Shown here one piece after another: positions 15,098 through 57,595 of a stretch of 64,000 bases of DNA. The stretch is from the NCBI GenBank assembly GCA_009777955.1, contig WRKW01000002.1, positions 152,155 through 216,154 of the forward strand, read 5' to 3'. The notes beneath the pieces were generated by a model. That model saw nothing but the letters and a program-made list of their open reading frames with translations, was not told the origin of the DNA and ran no database searches. The position numbers and the translations under genes are program-made. This DNA comes from Alphaproteobacteria bacterium. Lineage in GTDB: Bacteria; Pseudomonadota; Alphaproteobacteria; Rs-D84. Position 1 is the first letter of the stretch. Each line of letters begins with the position of its first letter.

Positions 15098-15174
15098 GGG
15101 TCGGTAGCTCAGTTGGTTAGAGCGGAGCGCTCATAACGCTTTGGTCCGGGGTTCGAGTCCCTGCCGACCCACCA
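15098..15174 (+). tRNA. tRNA-Met/Ile2 (anticodon CAT)
   Basis: gggtcggtagctcagttggttagagcggagcgctCATaacgc...gttcgagtccctgccgacccacca. Confidence 0.9.
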
Positions 15175-15246
15175 CCGTTTTTGTCCGAACGAAGTGAGGA
15201 TTACAAAAACGAGTGCCCGCCGTAGCCCGCAGGGCGAAGGCTGGGC
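15175..15246 (+). repeat. tRNA-trailing structured element (copy A)
   Basis: GTTTTTGT...ACAAAAAC then GCCC GCC gta GCCC gca GGGC gaa GGC t GGGC. Confidence 0.65.
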
Positions 15247-15403
15247 TGACCAAGTTCGGAACTCCGCCACGAAGGTTCACCATCATTTCTGTCCGAACGA
15301 AGTTATAAATACCGCCGCAGCACGCGGGACAAAGGCTGGACTGACCAACTATCAAATAGCACGGGATAAATCAAAAGGCTCGCAATTTGCGAGCCTTTTG
15401 TTT

Positions 15404-17115: not shown

Positions 17116-17202
17116 GGTCTTGTGGCGGAATGGTAGACGCTGAGGACTTAAAATCCTTTGGGCATTGCGCCCGTGTGGGTTCAAGTCCCACCAAGACCAC
17201 CA
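17116..17202 (+). tRNA. tRNA-Leu (anticodon TAA)
   Basis: ggtcttgtggcggaatggtagacgctgaggactTAAaatcc...gggttcaagtcccaccaagaccacca. Confidence 0.92.
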
Positions 17203-17372
17203 CCAAATTTCGTTATTGAGCGGAAAAGCCGCGAAATTAAGAAATTTGAGTGCCCGCCGTAGCCCGCGGGGCGAAGGCTGGGCAAAATTCCCCGATTTTT
17301 CACATCTGCCTTATAATCGGACAAATTATAGCTTAAATTTTGTAAAAATTATTGATTTTCAGCCGGTTTCGA
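17200..17372 (+). repeat. 173-bp direct repeat copy 1 (contains structured element copy B)
   Basis: Near-identical to 18362-18534; differences are transitions. Confidence 0.92.
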
Positions 17373-17543
17373 ACTCTTTGAATAAAAAGTTTATATCCCC
17401 ATGCCCTGCAATCGTTGCCGTTCTAGTTAGAGTTCATAGTCGTATTTCAACCTATATATTTTTAGGTAGAGAGATTGATTTTCCAATTTTTAAATATACA
17501 ATAAGCATTCGGAGAAGATACAAACTAAATAATATGGATCATT

Positions 17544-18284
17544 TTGAATCGCTCTGAAATCAATCTTATCAATATTGGGGCATACAACAAACTTGCACCT
17601 GTTTACAAAAAACGAACCATCACTACGGGTCGCTATCCTGTTTTAACATCTATATTATTGGATGATGGCGACAAAAGACAATTCTTTGTCATAGATTCTT
17701 GCCAGTATAATTTTGAAATGGCATTTATTGATTTTTATACAAAGCAAAATGGCAATCAATCGCTCAAGATGCTAGATATTGGGTTTGGCGCTGGAAATAC
17801 ATTAAATTATTTTGCAGGTTCAGATTATGAAACAACAGGCGTGGATTTCTCAAAAAAGATGTGTGAAACAGCAAAAAAAGTCAGTCCAAAGTCAGAGATT
17901 CATTGCGCTGATATATTTAATGTTGATTTTAAAGATGAATGTTTTGATGTCATAACGATGATGTCTATGCTGTGCCAGTTGCCAACACGCGATGCGCGAG
18001 CATTATTGACGCAGGTTAGACAGTGGTTGAAGCCAAACGGATACATTTATGCCTCTACATCCGTGGAAAATAATAGCGAGTCAGGAGTGTTTGTAAAAGA
18101 AACCATTGGTTGTTATAACTTAGGGAAGTCGACGATTAAACGCTTTCGCACAAATTATACAATAGACCGGTTTATCAAACTACTCGAATCTTCCGGGTTT
18201 GGAATTGTGATGCCATTTATAACATACGAGAAAAACAAAAAATCAAAACGTCAGTTCCAAGGTTATATATGTAAGTTGCGATAA
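17544..18284 (+). CDS. class I SAM-dependent methyltransferase
   Basis: LDIGFGAGNTLNYFAGSDYETTGVDFSKKM motif I/II. Confidence 0.82.
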   Translation: MNRSEINLINIGAYNKLAPVYKKRTITTGRYPVLTSILLDDGDKRQFFVIDSCQYNFEMAFIDFYTKQNGNQSLKMLDIGFGAGNTLNYFAGSDYETTGVDFSKKMCETAKKVSPKSEIHCADIFNVDFKDECFDVITMMSMLCQLPTRDARALLTQVRQWLKPNGYIYASTSVENNSESGVFVKETIGCYNLGKSTIKRFRTNYTIDRFIKLLESSGFGIVMPFITYEKNKKSKRQFQGYICKLR

Positions 18285-18361
18285 TTCTTGAAAATTTGAA
18301 TCTGTTGTACCAACCTTTAAAAGGATTGGAAATCGTTAGTTAGAAACTCGTGTAATATATT

Positions 18362-18534
18362 CCACCAAATTTCGTTATTGAGCGGAAAAGCCGCGAAATT
18401 AAGAAATTTGAGTGCCCGCCGTAGCCCGCAGGGCGAAGACTGGGCAAAATTTCCCAATTTTTCATATTTGCCTTATAATCGGACAAATTATAGCTTAAAT
18501 TTTGTAAAAATTATTGATTTTCAGCCGGTTTCGA
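18362..18534 (+). repeat. 173-bp direct repeat copy 2
   Basis: See 17200-17372. Confidence 0.92.
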
Positions 18535-44133: not shown

Positions 44134-44221
44134 GGAGCGTTGGCAGAGTGGTAATGCAGCAGATTGCTAATCTGTGAGGGCGAATAGCCCTCCATAGGTT
44201 CGAGTCCTATACGCTCCGCCA
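44134..44221 (+). tRNA. tRNA-Ser (anticodon GCT)
   Basis: ggagcgttggcagagtggtaatgcagcagattGCTaatctg...ggttcgagtcctatacgctccgcca. Confidence 0.93.
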
Positions 44222-44313
44222 CAAATTTTCGTTAATGAAACGGCGCCTTTGAGCGCCGTTGAATTTAAGAAAATTTAGTGCCCACCGAAGCCCCAAAGGG
44301 GCGAAGGTCGGGC
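44222..44313 (+). repeat. tRNA-trailing structured element (copy C)
   Basis: AAATTTTC..ACGGCGC ctttga GCGCCGT..GAAAATTT then GCCC ACC gaa GCCCC aaa GGGGC gaa GGT c GGGC. Confidence 0.75.
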
Positions 44314-44447
44314 TGTTTCCGCGAATTCTAAAACAAATAAACTGCGGAATTTTTATCGCGATGACTATATATACCCGCGAAAACACCACAACAGTTCAAT
44401 TTATTCACCCAATCTATATAATGGGCTAAAACTGAGAGTCAATAGCA

Positions 44448-46284: not shown

Positions 46285-47607
46285 ATGAAAAGACTTGCAT
46301 TAACATCCCTTGAAAAATGGAAAAATACTGCTGGCCACAAGCCCCTGGTCATCCACGGCGCACGTCAGGTTGGCAAAACCTGGCTGATGAAAGAATTCGG
46401 CCGCACAAACTACAAAAACATCGCCTATATCGGATTTGAGAAAAACCCAAGAATGCAGGAACTGTTTAGCGACGACCTTGATCCACACAGAATTTTAACC
46501 GGACTGGAATTGGAATCTGGGCAAAGAATTATTCCAGGCAAAACACTGATCGTATTCGATGAAATCCAGGAATGCCCAAATGCGCTAACTTCGTTGAAGT
46601 ATTTTAATGAAAATGTGCCTGAATACGACATTGTTGCGGCGGGCAGTCTGCTTGGCGTATATATGCACAAAGACACATCATTCCCAGTCGGTAAAGTTGA
46701 CTTTATGGATTTACGACCTATGTCATTTTGCGAATTTTTGGATGCGCTGGGCGAAGAAAGACTTTGCAATCTGATCACGAATAGAGATTGGAATTTAATC
46801 AAAGTATTTAAAAATAAATTGATTTCGTATCTTAAAATGTATTTCTATGTTGGCGGCATGCCAGAAGTGGTAAAAACTTTTATCCAAGATAAAGATTTTG
46901 TTGGCGCACGCAATGTCCAAAAAAAGATCTTAAAATCGTATGAAAACGACTTTTCAAAACACATCCCAGCTGATCAAATTCAAAAGGTGAGTTTGGTATG
47001 GAATGCCATCCCAAGTCAGCTGGCGAAAGAAAATAAAAAATTCAAATATAAAGATATCAAACAAGGGTCAAGCTCTGCGACACTTGAATACGCGATGGAA
47101 TGGTTATCTCGTGGCGGACTTATTTATCGTATTCCGCGCGTATCCAAACCAGCCATGCCTTTAAAGAGCTATGCAAACTCCAGTGGCGCATTCAAGTTGT
47201 TTATGGTTGATATTGGACTACTGTCTGCCCAGTCCGAAGTTGATAGTCGTGCGATCTTGGAAGGTAATGCGCTGTTTACAGAGTTCAAAGGCGCACTAAC
47301 CGAACAGTTCGTATGCCAAGAGCTGAAAGTACATGATGATGTTTATATGGCATATTGGGCAAACGAAGGTTCTGGACAAGCAGAGATCGATTTTATCCTG
47401 CAAATTGGTATGAATATTGTTCCAGTAGAGACAAAAGCCACAACAGATTTGCGTGCAAAAAGTCTTTCGGTTTACCGTAATAAATTCAAACCAAAAATCG
47501 AAGTTCGAACATCCCAGGCTGACTATAAAAAAACAGGTAATCTGTTCGATATTCCGCTATATACATTGAGCAATCTAAAAGAAATTATCGAAGATAATAA
47601 GGGGTAA
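46285..47607 (+). CDS. AAA_14/DUF4143 ATPase
   Basis: VIHGARQVGKTWLMKEFG, LIVFDEIQECPNALTSLKYF, VAAGSLLGV, C-term IDFILQIGMNIVPVETKA. Confidence 0.9.
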   Translation: MKRLALTSLEKWKNTAGHKPLVIHGARQVGKTWLMKEFGRTNYKNIAYIGFEKNPRMQELFSDDLDPHRILTGLELESGQRIIPGKTLIVFDEIQECPNALTSLKYFNENVPEYDIVAAGSLLGVYMHKDTSFPVGKVDFMDLRPMSFCEFLDALGEERLCNLITNRDWNLIKVFKNKLISYLKMYFYVGGMPEVVKTFIQDKDFVGARNVQKKILKSYENDFSKHIPADQIQKVSLVWNAIPSQLAKENKKFKYKDIKQGSSSATLEYAMEWLSRGGLIYRIPRVSKPAMPLKSYANSSGAFKLFMVDIGLLSAQSEVDSRAILEGNALFTEFKGALTEQFVCQELKVHDDVYMAYWANEGSGQAEIDFILQIGMNIVPVETKATTDLRAKSLSVYRNKFKPKIEVRTSQADYKKTGNLFDIPLYTLSNLKEIIEDNKG

Positions 47608-47614
47608 TACAGTT

Positions 47615-47710
47615 ATGACTAAATTTAACAAACTGACCGAAGAAGATACAAAACGGATAGAGATCACGCCTGCGATCACAAGTCGCGGGTGGGATAATAT
47701 AAGCGGATAA
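47615..47710 (+). pseudogene. N-terminal stub of type I restriction R subunit (HsdR-like), 31 aa
   Basis: MTKFNKLTEEDTKRIEITPAITSRGWDNISG*, typical TExDTRxxxITPAxxxAGWD start. Confidence 0.6.
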
Positions 47711-47712
47711 AT

Positions 47713-49098
47713 ATGAAAATAGTAGACTCAAAACAAGAATTTATAGATTCAACAACATCTTTTTATAACCATATTATAAAAAATAGCATGGTCGCATTCT
47801 CTAAGCATCCAGATAAAAACATTTTGTTGTCAAAATTATATGATAATATTAGCTGGAATACATATCAGCCTAGTCTTCCAAGAGAATATATTGTTTACAA
47901 TAAAGGCAGATGTGTAGCCCGCATTGTTCCGACATTTGAATTAAATGATTATTGTGTATATTTTTATTGTTTAAATAAATTGCAAGATTTTGTATGTGAC
48001 GCAAACGATAGAGTAGAAAATACATTCGGCGGATGGCGAATTGATAACCCAATTAAAAAAGTTGAAGATCTAGAACAAGAAGTATTGCTTGATTTTAGTA
48101 CATACAGTCCATATGCTACGCTCAAAATCCAAGGTTGGTTGAATGAATGGAAGCAATTTTCTCAAGTTTCGCTCGGTATATCTGAAGATTACAAAGAAAA
48201 ATATGGGGATTGTTTCTATGTCGCTACTTTCGATGTTGCCAATTTTTATGATGGTATTCGAATAGATATTTTAGAAAAACTATTACGTAGCAAAGTTTCA
48301 AATCTCTTTAGCGGTGAAATTGACCTGTTGTTGTATTTCTTAAAATATTGGAATAAGCCATTTGATGGATACTTCCCAAGAACTTCAGGCATACCGCAAG
48401 ATGAAGTTGGAGATTGCTCAAGACAATTAGCGAATTTTTATTTGCGAGATTATGATAAAAAAATGTATCTCTTGACACAAAAAATGGATGCTACATATTT
48501 AAGATATGCCGATGATATGATGATATTTGGCAAAAGCAAAAATGATATTGAAAAAATTGTATTTGAAGCATCCAAGCTGCTACATAAGATAGGTCTTAAT
48601 ATAAATGTTGGCAAGGTTTGTATTATGTCCGCAGCAGAATATCATATATATGAAGGGTTTGATATTTTAACGAAAATCAACTCAGATGATAGAACGTTAT
48701 TTAATGATGGCGTTAGGTTATATTTTGAGTACAAAAAACAAGAACGTAATTGTCGGTATGATAGACAACTCAAACGCATAATGACATTGCTTGCTAAAAA
48801 TACGTTAAAATATCTTGACGATGATTTACATAATAAAATCATTGGGGAAATTTTATCAGAAACGATGCTTTCTGATTATCCTGTTTATCAGTTTAACAAT
48901 CTTCATAAGCTGATTCAGGAAAAAGGACAAGAAAAACAATTCTTTGCTGTATTAGATAAAATGATTATATCAGTAAATCACAATTCGTTTCATTACTCTT
49001 TGTTAAGATTTTACAAATCTATAAAAAGAAAAGATTTCGACTATGAAAATCTTCAAAATGAAATAGATAAAAGAAAATTACGTTTGGGGTTTTTATAG
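47713..49098 (+). CDS. reverse transcriptase, UG/Abi (DRT)-like
   Basis: TFDVANFYDGI, SGIPQDEVGDCSRQLANFYL, YLRYADDMMIFG; helical C-terminal extension, no maturase or HNH domain seen. Confidence 0.82.
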   Translation: MKIVDSKQEFIDSTTSFYNHIIKNSMVAFSKHPDKNILLSKLYDNISWNTYQPSLPREYIVYNKGRCVARIVPTFELNDYCVYFYCLNKLQDFVCDANDRVENTFGGWRIDNPIKKVEDLEQEVLLDFSTYSPYATLKIQGWLNEWKQFSQVSLGISEDYKEKYGDCFYVATFDVANFYDGIRIDILEKLLRSKVSNLFSGEIDLLLYFLKYWNKPFDGYFPRTSGIPQDEVGDCSRQLANFYLRDYDKKMYLLTQKMDATYLRYADDMMIFGKSKNDIEKIVFEASKLLHKIGLNINVGKVCIMSAAEYHIYEGFDILTKINSDDRTLFNDGVRLYFEYKKQERNCRYDRQLKRIMTLLAKNTLKYLDDDLHNKIIGEILSETMLSDYPVYQFNNLHKLIQEKGQEKQFFAVLDKMIISVNHNSFHYSLLRFYKSIKRKDFDYENLQNEIDKRKLRLGFL

Positions 49099-53592: not shown

Positions 53593-53692
53593 CAAAAAAC
53601 GGCTTTCAGAGAATATCTGAAAGCCGTGATGGCTATGGGCGGAATAGAAAGCAGTGTGATTCTTATAAAAATCCCGTGCCTAATAAAATAGA

Positions 53693-53770
53693 GCCATTCT
53701 TCGCAAAGGCTACGAATGGCACTAAAAAATCTTAAACGTCCGCATTTCTGCGGACGCTAACGATTTTTTG
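53693..53770 (-). repeat. tRNA-trailing structured element (copy D, after tRNA-Phe 3' half)
   Basis: Minus strand CAAAAAATC..CGTCCGC agaaat GCGGACG..GATTTTTTAGTGCCATTC gta GCctttGC gaa GAATGGC. Confidence 0.75.
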
Positions 53771-53815
53771 TGGTGGCTGCGACGGGATTTGAACCAGTGA
53801 CACACGGATTTTCAG
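53771..53815 (-). pseudogene. tRNA-Phe 3' half
   Basis: Minus strand CTGAAAATCCGTGTGTCACTGGTTCAAATCCCGTCGCAGCCACCA; acceptor CGCAGCC pairs with GGCTGCG at 57796-57802. Confidence 0.88.
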
Positions 53816-54341
53816 CATTATGCGCTATTTTTTAGATAACGCGGATTTCCGCCGATTGCAGGGGTTTTTTTACCCCGCCATAAAATCTCGTGTGTCCGTG
53901 GTGTAAAATCACGCATAAACTAAAACAGGTTTCGCTTGTATCGCAATCCTATTTTTTCCAAACCATTTTTTATTTCTGACCAGCCGATATTCCAATCGAG
54001 CTGAAAACAAAAAACGATTTCCCCGACCACTTCTTGCGATGAATATAACACGCAGGTTTTCTTTTTTCAAGGCAATTTTTCTTAACACTTTTTCCCCGCG
54101 TTTCCCGCCATAGAAATCCACCGCCAATTTTGTGAAATTACGCTAGCGATTTTTTGATTTTTATTTTTTAGATTTTGGTCGTTCAACCAACAACAAAGGA
54201 AACCTGTGTAAAACGGACTTAAATAGACACATCATGGCTTATTGCTGTTCTAGACACGGGGGAATTTTAGTCCCATGTTCCACCAATATTCGCATAAAAA
54301 ACGCCGTAAAATACGGCGTTCAAAAACACAACCGGATGAGT

Positions 54342-54668
54342 TTATACATGCCAGTTTTGTGTTTTTGGGACGTTTGTATTCCCTGACGAACTTACGGACG
54401 TTTGCCACTTGGGGTAATCATCGCATTTTGTACGATTATTCTCCCAGTGCAATGGGTTCAAGTTGGCCAAGTCGTCTGTTCCGCCTTTGGATACTGGCTT
54501 ACGATGATCTACTTCCCACGCATAATTTGTGGTTTTTCCGTAGTCATCATATTTAATCCAAGCACCTGCATAATCTTTACGCCAGACTTTTGGATCAACG
54601 TTGGGAACAATTATCGCTTTTTTCCAGACATCATCCGGATTAAAAGCAACTTCGTTTTTAAGTGACAT
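54342..54668 (-). CDS. HNH endonuclease
   Basis: WEVDHRKPVSKGGTDDLANLNPLHWENNRTKCDDYP. Confidence 0.82.
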   Translation of the reverse strand: MSLKNEVAFNPDDVWKKAIIVPNVDPKVWRKDYAGAWIKYDDYGKTTNYAWEVDHRKPVSKGGTDDLANLNPLHWENNRTKCDDYPKWQTSVSSSGNTNVPKTQNWHV

Positions 54669-54812
54669 TTCAGTCCCTTTTGGTTATGTCAAATCGACCT
54701 GGCAACAAACAATTTGACAATTGGTTAGGGACTTTGCTATAATAGGTACGTCGAAGATGCCTATTATCAGGTATCCCATAAAATCCGCTGCACTCGCAGT
54801 GGATTTTATTTT

Positions 54813-55196
54813 CTAGAGAGAATCCGACCTTGTGCCACCTCTCTCTCGTGCAGTTGATAGTTTTATAATTACCATCCCATCACTGACATCAAACTCATAA
54901 AAACTAGTTTTTTCCGGTAAAATCGAATAATACTCAAAAAATGACTTTGCGGAAAAATCCAACCCTTTTTCTCTATATCTTACATTCGTAACCCCATTTC
55001 CGTCATCTTCCTCCAGAAAATGGATTCCGATTTCTTGAGAGTCCTTATTATAAAATACAGCGGCGAATTTTTGCCTGTCTTTGTTCAGGCCGAGTTTTTC
55101 ACGTGCGCCCTCATTGAAACTGACATTTCCTATGTTTGATATGGATACTCTCGCCTTAAATATCCCCCCAAACTTATTAAATCTCTCAAAAGCCAT
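54813..55196 (-). CDS. hypothetical protein of the RM island
   Basis: 127-aa ORF; no recognised domain. Confidence 0.55.
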   Translation of the reverse strand: MAFERFNKFGGIFKARVSISNIGNVSFNEGAREKLGLNKDRQKFAAVFYNKDSQEIGIHFLEEDDGNGVTNVRYREKGLDFSAKSFFEYYSILPEKTSFYEFDVSDGMVIIKLSTARERGGTRSDSL

Positions 55197-55423
55197 CGTT
55201 TTCTCCTTTTGTTAGGTCCATCGATTTGCTTTATTTACATTTTACATAAAATTATACGACTTGTCAAGGAAAATTTAACGACTCCTGTAACTGCAAGTCG
55301 CGTTCACATCTGTCAGTTATAGCTTTACAAACAAAACCCCATAAGGTCGTTCTTATGGGCAAATTATCAGAAAAGACAAATGCGCATAAAATTAATAAAC
55401 TCCTACTTGCGTTTATTTATGTT

Positions 55424-56485
55424 TTACAAAAGGTTCATTTCCATTTTATAGTAAAATTCTATATCGTTTATAAGGATATTGGTGTCGGATTCATTCATAT
55501 CAGCTAACCAATCTTTCAATTCGTTTATGGTTATTATTTCTTCGATCGCTTGAATTATTCTATCTTTTATAACTTTCATTCCGCCATGCTTGGCATTTAT
55601 AAAATCTGCAATTTCTTTGTTTATAACTTTGGCTGGCTTGTTTGTTTTTACAACAAATGTTATAGGAAAGTGCAAAACCTTATCTATATCCAAAAGATAT
55701 TTGCTGTAATTATCAACCTCTGTTACTTGAAAAAAACGACCAAGTGGACGCATGACGAAGTCGATACCACCATCGTTCGCATTTGTGCGACCTGTTTTAT
55801 ATAGAGTTAAATAATGCTCTTCCAGATCCTTTTTAGTATATCCAAAATAGACTTTGGTGTTTTTGTAATGATTTTTCAGAACTGCAAAAGCAATTATTTC
55901 AAATATACGGGCTTCTGCGTCGTCTTTCAGGAAACTTTCTAATTTTCGCTTTTTATCTGCGATACTAGAAATCCCACGTAATTCTTCTAAATCTGCCACA
56001 AGAGCATTATCTTTGGCTTTCAATAGATCTATATATTTTTCAATAATTTCCAAAATTGCTTTAGATATGTCAATTTTGCCAACATACAAATATTTAATGT
56101 TCAGCAAGTATTTGCCATTTTCAATAATTATCGGTGGGGTTTGATCGTTCGTTTTATTCGCAAACTCGAAATTGACACGATTATTCAATCCATGGTTTTG
56201 TAATTTTTCTCCCCCATACTGACTTCTGCAAAATTCAAATAAAGTCATATATGGAAATCCTGCGAACTTTTTATATTCTTCGCGTTTATTATAAAATTTT
56301 TGGGCATAAAAGTGTGCCAGAGAGTATATAGCATATATATTAGCCAAACTCTTGCGAGTTTTAGTGTTCCCGCTAATCGCTCCCATTTTAGAATCTAGAT
56401 ATTGTATCATCGGGCTGCTGTCATAAATCGCTTCAAAATCTTTTTTGAAATTACTTTGTAAAATTTGTTTGATAAAATCTTTCAT
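55424..56485 (-). CDS. putative type II restriction endonuclease
   Basis: Overlaps MTase by 4 nt; possible PD-(D/E)XK motif GGIDFVMRPLGRFFQVTEVDN. Confidence 0.65.
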   Translation of the reverse strand: MKDFIKQILQSNFKKDFEAIYDSSPMIQYLDSKMGAISGNTKTRKSLANIYAIYSLAHFYAQKFYNKREEYKKFAGFPYMTLFEFCRSQYGGEKLQNHGLNNRVNFEFANKTNDQTPPIIIENGKYLLNIKYLYVGKIDISKAILEIIEKYIDLLKAKDNALVADLEELRGISSIADKKRKLESFLKDDAEARIFEIIAFAVLKNHYKNTKVYFGYTKKDLEEHYLTLYKTGRTNANDGGIDFVMRPLGRFFQVTEVDNYSKYLLDIDKVLHFPITFVVKTNKPAKVINKEIADFINAKHGGMKVIKDRIIQAIEEIITINELKDWLADMNESDTNILINDIEFYYKMEMNLL

Positions 56486-57402
56486 GCAGCTATCCTAAAT
56501 AAGTTGTGTTCGTTGCTGTGTTTAGACCGGTTTGTTGTTTTTCGTTCTTTTATTTTGGTTAATGATTTGCCATTGTATTCTTGACGCAATCCAGTTCGGC
56601 GCAATCCAATTTCATAAAACTCTGGATTTAAGTCAATACCAACCGTTTTTCTACCAAGTTTAAGCGCAACCGCAGATGTTGTAAAACTTCCAGAAAATGG
56701 ATCAAGGATCACATCGCCTTTATTACTGGACGCTTTGATTATGCGTTCTAGTAATAATTCTGGTTTCTGCGTTGGATGATTTTCATATTCATCCATACGA
56801 AATCTTACTCGTGAGAAATCCCATACATTACCAGGCACCTTCTGATTGTTATATGGTTGTGGCGGATCTTTTCTATAATCTATCAATCCGCGAACCGCAC
56901 CAGTTTTCGCTTCTACCAATATATCTTCGTAGTTGAATGTATAATCGGAATTCTTAGATTTATTTATCATTAAAATCGGTTCATATAGAGACCCATACAT
57001 TTTTTTGGATTGCACGCCGGAACTATCATACGACCAAATTATACGCGACAGGACATTATATTTTTTCGACGCATGTACATCTAGAAATGACATGAATTGG
57101 GTGGCGGTCATAAAATACATTGTCCCATCATCTTTTAAGACACGCATACACTCGTCGATCCATTGTTCGCACCACTTCAAATATGATTCTGTTGAATCCC
57201 ACTTATCCATATTATTTCCAAAATCCTTGCCTATATTGTATGGCGGATCAGCAAAAATAAGATTTATTGATTTAGATTTTATAGATTTCAATACATTGAT
57301 AGAGTCACCAAGAGCAACCAAACAATCACGATTCGCTTCATGCGATTTGCAAGCATCAAAATTATTAAATAGCTCTAGCATTTTTCCTTCCCTGCAAACC
57401 AT
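56482..57402 (-). CDS. adenine-specific DNA methyltransferase, YhdJ-like
   Basis: IFADPPYNIGK, WSYDSSGVQSKKMYGSLYEPILM, LIDYRKDPPQPYNNQKVPGNVWDF, HPTQKPELLLERII, LDPFSGSFTT. Confidence 0.92.
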   Translation of the reverse strand: MVCREGKMLELFNNFDACKSHEANRDCLVALGDSINVLKSIKSKSINLIFADPPYNIGKDFGNNMDKWDSTESYLKWCEQWIDECMRVLKDDGTMYFMTATQFMSFLDVHASKKYNVLSRIIWSYDSSGVQSKKMYGSLYEPILMINKSKNSDYTFNYEDILVEAKTGAVRGLIDYRKDPPQPYNNQKVPGNVWDFSRVRFRMDEYENHPTQKPELLLERIIKASSNKGDVILDPFSGSFTTSAVALKLGRKTVGIDLNPEFYEIGLRRTGLRQEYNGKSLTKIKERKTTNRSKHSNEHNLFRIAA

Positions 57403-57519
57403 AGTTTATTGATTTACAGATAAAAATGCAATAGAGAAATTATTTTACATATGTTATACATATAGAAATTTTTACAAAAAATCGGCTCTCGGAGAAACCT
57501 CTGAAAGCCATGGATTTAC

Positions 57520-57595
57520 TGGTGGCTTGAACTGGATTTGAACCAGTGACACACGGATTTTCAGTCCGATGCTCTACCAGCTGAGCTATCAAGCC
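57520..57595 (-). tRNA. tRNA-Phe (anticodon GAA), intact, inside the RM island
   Basis: Reverse complement GGCTTGATAGCTCAGCTGGTAGAGCATCGGACTGAAAATCCGTGTGTCACTGGTTCAAATCCAGTTCAAGCCACCA. Confidence 0.93.

Follow-up and report, generated by a model that had tools for sequence, protein, structure and literature searches.

A two-hairpin element directly behind tRNA 3' ends in Alphaproteobacteria: a candidate non-autonomous mobile element

Why should different tRNA genes of one genome be followed, from the base directly after their CCA, by the same structured element? The question is raised by a stretch of 64,000 nucleotides, here called the window, from an alphaproteobacterial genome assembly (GCA_009777955.1, contig WRKW01000002.1, positions 152,155 to 216,154), in which an earlier note had described four copies (A to D) of such an element behind at least four different tRNA genes. 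All four copies are real and lie where they had been placed, each beginning at the base after CCA. The tRNA count was too high, as only three of the eight tRNAs found in the window with ARAGORN carry the element (A, B and C start at the base directly after the CCA of their host) and D stands behind a tRNA-Phe half; a fifth copy, E, had been overlooked. The copies and their surroundings are as follows, with E-values from covariance models made here (the first of them from five copies), which are rough.

15098-15174, plus strand: tRNA-Met(CAT), host of copy A (ARAGORN)
15175-15247, plus strand: copy A, comprising hairpin 1, AGTGCC and hairpin 2, directly behind tRNA-Met(CAT) (E = 4.5e-11)
15248-15282, plus strand: 3' tail of copy A, a full-length copy, gacc-AAGTTCGGAAC...CACCA
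15281-15340, plus strand: decayed second copy in tandem behind A, a weak match (E = 1.5; C2:167435-167494)
17116-17202, plus strand: tRNA-Leu(TAA), host of copy B (ARAGORN)
17203-17284, plus strand: copy B (E = 7e-21)
18365-18446, plus strand: copy E behind a bare CCA, a duplicate of B (pattern scan and covariance model)
44134-44221, plus strand: tRNA-Ser(GCT), host of copy C (ARAGORN)
44222-44314, plus strand: copy C, in whose predicted fold A76 of the tRNA and the C after it pair with UG in the element
53692-53770, minus strand: copy D behind a displaced tRNA-Phe 3' half (E = 2.6e-14)
53771-53815, minus strand: displaced tRNA-Phe 3' half, 45 nt, followed by copy D
57520-57595, minus strand: intact tRNA-Phe(GAA), with a terminator-like hairpin right behind its CCA and without the element (ARAGORN)

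The other tRNAs of the window, namely tRNA-Glu, tRNA-Met at 1994-2068, tRNA-Ser(CGA) and tRNA-Arg(TCT), are likewise without it. Copies E and B are 96% identical over 176 nt, that is, B plus the 90 nt behind it, and a methyltransferase gene (17544-18284) lies between the two in a cargo-like position (17203-18446).

The core of the element spans about 75-105 nt, and complete copies are roughly 110-150 nt long and end in CCA again. The common layout, the paired changes in the stems and the 3x3 internal loops (GTA/GAA and GAA/GAA) noted earlier were borne out on re-reading; the two stems described as stem 1 and stem 2 are present as well, although they belong to one long hairpin. In this hairpin 1 an 8-bp stem leads to a 3x3 loop, GUU/UAA, and then to an inner stem that varies between copies and often has tandem GA mismatches. 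It is followed by AGTG(C/T)C, with AGT conserved in 96 of 101 copies, and by hairpin 2, in which the 3x3 loop (GAA/GAA or GTA/GAA) is loop-E-like or a tandem G-A arrangement. A T-run stands behind hairpin 2 in only 12 of the 101 copies, mostly from one genus. The folding energies of the copies tested are far below those of shuffled sequences (z from -3.7 to -7.3). There is also a second subtype in which a larger branched structure, CTTCG...GGTGGCNNGCCACC...GAAGG, takes the place of hairpin 1 (L092, L093, L168, L134 and L135), and which is common in the large-genome families of the Alphaproteobacteria too.

Structure statistics were obtained from 101 distinct copies of the family, leaving the inner part of hairpin 1 out of the pair counts, as the MAFFT alignments had misaligned it. 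In these copies 95.7% of the cells pair, 20 of the 22 pairs show two-sided changes, and every slide of the structure along the alignment collapses the pairing score. A tree-based null, a home-made substitute for R-scape in which substitutions were kept per branch and their positions redrawn, was passed at E up to 0.05 by 12 structure pairs with uniform positions and by 11 with rate-weighted ones, two of which adjoin a loop and lie outside the general pair list; the off-structure pairs that passed were one or two, and neighbouring. Covariation among the family copies thus exceeds a phylogeny-aware null at 11-12 of 22 pairs. The pairing score is higher still in 66 copies from other families, mostly not used for model building, in alignments that were fitted to the model and so favour the structure. 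Since G-U cells outnumber A-C cells by 54 to 19, the strand that folds is the tRNA-sense one.

Hairpin 1 closes on the tRNA itself. The base at +1, directly after CCA, covaries with the N of a conserved NUG in the element: a C at +1 is matched by G in 58 of 62 distinct cases, a G by C in 3 of 3, and a T by A in 4 of 7, the rest being wobble pairs or a parsing miss, while copies with A at +1 read, by eye, as UUG. The two positions change together and therefore the helix reaches into the CA of the CCA, so that CA and the next base pair with NUG. In the predicted fold of tRNA-Ser with copy C, A76 and the next C pair with UG, and the acceptor and T stems are kept; the predicted folds of other variants, made at the level of the element, agree. 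The last G of GUG may alternatively pair within hairpin 2, and that pair almost never varies. Both the covariation of +1 with NUG and the extension of the helix into the tRNA are new in this analysis.

Searches with the covariance model revealed many further copies beside tRNAs, in the source genome as well as in sister genomes, most of the genomes surveyed being metagenome assemblies. The 1.02-Mb source genome has 12 strong copies (E <= 1.2e-9), seven of them behind intact tRNAs (Leu, two Ser, Pro, Tyr, Met and Val), one behind the tRNA-Phe half and four behind remnants that end in CCA. There are weaker matches after tRNA-Gly(CCC), Ser(TGA) and Leu(CAA) as well. Of the 42 tRNAs of this genome, at least half are without the element; many have an ordinary terminator-like hairpin after CCA instead, and several carry decayed remnants of the element. 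Matches were found in 40 of 101 related genomes, nearly all of the same family. Among the distinct family copies, 70 start at +1 after a tRNA and five at -3, with 29 anticodons represented, and most of the remainder lie directly behind a tRNA 3' remnant ending in CCA; by a wider count, 78 of 104 family copies adjoin a tRNA 3' end and 21 more stand directly behind CCA.

Beyond the family the same position recurs. In a scan of the whole class, six further families had weaker matches, and four of the seven places read begin at most two bases from a tRNA end (Asn, Val, Met and Arg). A second covariance model found matches in 35 of 192 genomes of one other order, and in the large-genome families of the class there are matches directly behind tRNA-Ala, Tyr, Val, Leu, Gly and Ser. 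In a phylum-level scan all matches were in Alphaproteobacteria, as were the non-matches listed. The named database records with the commonest stem variant are without exception proteobacterial assemblies; most bear an alphaproteobacterial label, and many derive from rumen or gut samples. Several copies lie within a permuted transfer-messenger RNA (tmRNA) gene, directly behind the CCA of the acceptor half, and four genomes have an inverted pair of copies in the tmRNA intervening segment. Three copies are inverted before the 5' end of a tRNA, with the hairpin-1 side toward it (L243, L247 and L220); in L243 one tRNA-Tyr is flanked by copies on both sides.

Whether the element is present differs between syntenic sites of related genomes. 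Between tRNA-Trp and secE the distance from CCA to the gene is 20 nt here and 95 nt in a genome of the same genus, where a 77-nt element is followed by 18 nt. Between tRNA-Arg and secG it is 23 nt here and 150 nt (127 + 23) in another genus, and the 127-nt insert starts with hairpin 1 and closes with a tail whose last bases are CATCA. In one genus the tRNA-Lys site holds the element in five species and lacks it in at least seven, the downstream gene being the same, and most of the empty sites have a terminator-like hairpin behind CCA. Copies also decay in place.

Five complete copies, which represent four genera and two orders, can be aligned through a tail of the form AGTTCTRAAC...CACCA. The distance from GTTCNNAA to the end of CCA is fixed at 21 nt in four cases downstream of copies, against 0.2 expected, and further cases with this spacing occur upstream of tandem copies; a simple count of the tail motif gives a weak excess (12 against 4.4 expected). 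The fixed-distance tail is counted, with caution, into the full-length element. As complete copies end in a new CCA, tandem stacking is possible, and in tandem arrays the next element does begin at the tail CCA of the preceding one.

On balance, the element is probably a non-autonomous mobile element specific for the 3' ends of tRNA and tmRNA. It stands directly 3' of the CCA of a tRNA, or of the acceptor half of a permuted tmRNA, and in the orientation of the tRNA, where insertion would be tolerated, since the trailer or, in tmRNA, the intervening segment is removed by processing. Mobility is argued from the syntenic empty and filled sites at tRNA-Trp/secE, tRNA-Arg/secG and tRNA-Lys and from the decayed copies. 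Further support comes from the precision of the target, the tandem and duplicated copies, the copies within tmRNA, the inverted 5' copies and the pairing with CCA. The mobile form may be the folded single strand, in which NUG would act as a short guide choosing CCA as the target, analogous to the guide bases of IS200/IS605 and of repetitive extragenic palindromic (REP) sequences, and a separate enzyme would move the element in trans. The earlier note had left the choice between a trailer RNA, a processing signal and a small element that targets tRNA ends; the last is the best supported, by the empty and filled sites and by the decayed, tandem and inverted 5' copies.

Several points weigh against a mobile element. 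No link could be established between the element and a transposase, an integrase or any other enzyme, and REP-type Y1 transposases (PF01797) number zero in the source genome and occur in 6 of 61 genomes searched. A reverse transcriptase was considered as the driver and set aside, being present in about 12 of 24 genomes with the element and in 6 of 13 without, with no association by eye. No phage or plasmid record carries the element, as judged from a pattern scan of IMG/VR with one stem variant and from phage and plasmid collections. The comparisons of empty with filled sites are between species and are not observed events. The conserved loops, the conserved AGT and the tolerance of G-U pairs fit a functional RNA as well, and in one genus hairpin 2 with its T-run may serve as a terminator.

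These last points lead to the main rival, a trailer that serves the host, in which the NUG-CA pairing and the two hairpins would shield the 3' end of the pre-tRNA, set the endonuclease cut or stop transcription, and which would have spread by selection. Covariation, the sense-strand G-U bias, the conserved internal loops and the CCA pairing itself are what such a trailer would be expected to show; copies lie between genes that are probably co-transcribed with the tRNA; and in one genus a T-run follows hairpin 2 and the ordinary terminator is lost at the filled tRNA-Lys sites. A role in processing or termination is weakened, however, by the patchy presence, both within a single genome and between syntenic sites. 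In the source genome at least half of all tRNAs do without the element, many of them with an ordinary terminator, so for most tRNAs a processing signal is not needed, and the element is absent at the orthologous tRNA in relatives. Decayed remnants, the rarity of the T-run and the inverted 5' copies, which would put the antisense strand into the transcript, also speak against it. We regard a host trailer as possible, yet unlikely. A further variant of the mobile element, rather improbable in our view, is that the RNA of the element is joined to, or copied from, a mature CCA 3' end and the product then recombined into the tRNA gene; such addressing at the RNA level would account for the use of any tRNA, and of the permuted tmRNA, as a target.

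Recombination offers two other explanations. The element could be an attachment-site arm left by islands that integrate at tRNA 3' ends via a tyrosine recombinase, as displaced tRNA 3' halves followed by the element (D, and L101, on a contig with a phage-type integrase gene) and cargo between two copies (B-E with its methyltransferase; contig C12) might suggest. Most copies, however, have neither cargo nor a second tRNA fragment, attachment arms need no compensatory hairpins, the family's integrases do not demonstrably track the element, and at D the crossover lies upstream, in the tRNA, with the element looking like a bystander; this origin is thus improbable. Passive copying of trailers, by recombination or gene conversion between tRNA genes, would fit the position of the junction where tRNA similarity ends and the Tyr and Val copies, which have about 200 nt in common with the downstream flank included. 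It is quite improbable, given how little 3'-end sequence is common to tRNAs of 29 anticodons, the different stems of copies within one genome and the clean insertions at the secE and secG sites. An ordinary REP sequence moved by a REP-associated tyrosine transposase (RAYT) is the least credible origin, and a very improbable one: the element is a small palindromic repeat with tandem and inverted pairs and G-U pairs, and REP families exist in Bradyrhizobium (PMC3733652), but the Y1 transposase is absent from the source genome and found in few members of the family, copies are not scattered over intergenic regions, and GTAG lies within a hairpin and not at its foot.

If the base-pairing tie to the universal CCA is true, a mobile element of this kind would have a new means of locating safe insertion sites: with the trailer cut off, an insertion at any tRNA or tmRNA 3' end would be harmless. 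For annotation across the Alphaproteobacteria the element matters to tRNA trailers, tmRNA intervening segments and the boundaries of islands. It is also a concrete test case for the question whether structure in small repeats is maintained for the sake of the host or of transposition.

The surroundings of the copies contain further features. In the window a 3.7-kb island (53771-57519) lies between the intact tRNA-Phe and its displaced 3' half and encodes a type II restriction enzyme (55424-56485) and a DNA methylase (56482-57402); no integrase gene was recognised in it. Candidate defence genes occupy 46285-49098: first one for a PDC-S01 protein (46285-47607), then one for a defence reverse transcriptase of the UG13b type (47713-49098), which ends 69 nt before tRNA-Arg(TCT). 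On contig C12 of the source genome (L086 1-1746) a 127-nt segment of element and flank occurs twice, identically, at a distance of 1.6 kb; the two copies enclose two open reading frames (ORFs) without a Pfam match, and the contig ends in the repeat. In L037, L038, L039 and L046 the space between tRNA-Val(TAC) and the element contains a structured unit, about 150-200 nt long, that starts with GGGGATGTGGGACGAAAACCCC and finishes with CATCCACCA; the unit's ends are able to pair like an acceptor stem, and it is possibly a tRNA-like RNA. In L039 (1738-1826), ahead of an ORF, there is a match to sRNA-Xcc1 that stays below threshold (42.3 bits against a cut-off of 53); it occurs near the element in one genome only and is unrelated to it.

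Among known families, Rfam 15 gave no match over the element at gathering or relaxed thresholds, and no description of it was found in the literature covered, which excluded subscription papers. A 2025 survey of tmRNA mentions in passing a repetitive element in the intervening segment of one permuted tmRNA (PMC11915505); this is the same kind of place, reported there without sequence, structure or a link to tRNA. An intrinsic terminator as the identity of the element was rejected, as so few copies have the T-run. REP sequences with their RAYT transposases resemble it as short palindromic repeats with sub-families of compensatory stems and with tandem and head-to-head pairs, and in being non-autonomous. 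They differ in that the element is nearly exclusive to tRNA and tmRNA ends and has two hairpins with GUU/UAA and GNA/GAA loops. REP families carry GTAG/CGTC at the foot of the palindrome (PMC3733652), whereas here GTA is found in the internal loop of hairpin 2, and in part of the copies only. We rejected an identity with REP/RAYT on the missing Y1 transposase and tetranucleotide foot and on the position of nearly all copies behind tRNA or CCA.

The attC sites of integrons share imperfect hairpins, variable stems, a conserved structure and, in places, cargo between two copies, and proteins of PF00589 are present in the genome; the element differs in standing at tRNA ends and in being without the RYYYAAC...GTTRRRY arrangement. 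By reading, its 5' side has GTT and its 3' side TAA, with no AAC box, and an attC site was rejected. Rickettsia palindromic elements are like the element in being alphaproteobacterial and about 100-150 nt long, and unlike it in their insertion in many genes. IS200/IS605 elements insert in a specific orientation 3' of a short target with which bases at the hairpin foot pair. The present element differs from them in that no Y1 transposase is encoded in the genome, its pairing bases are at the 3' foot of hairpin 1 and its tail ends in a new CCA. The likeness, which is one of working only, lies in the fixed target, CCA, and in the pairing of NUG with CA and the next base.
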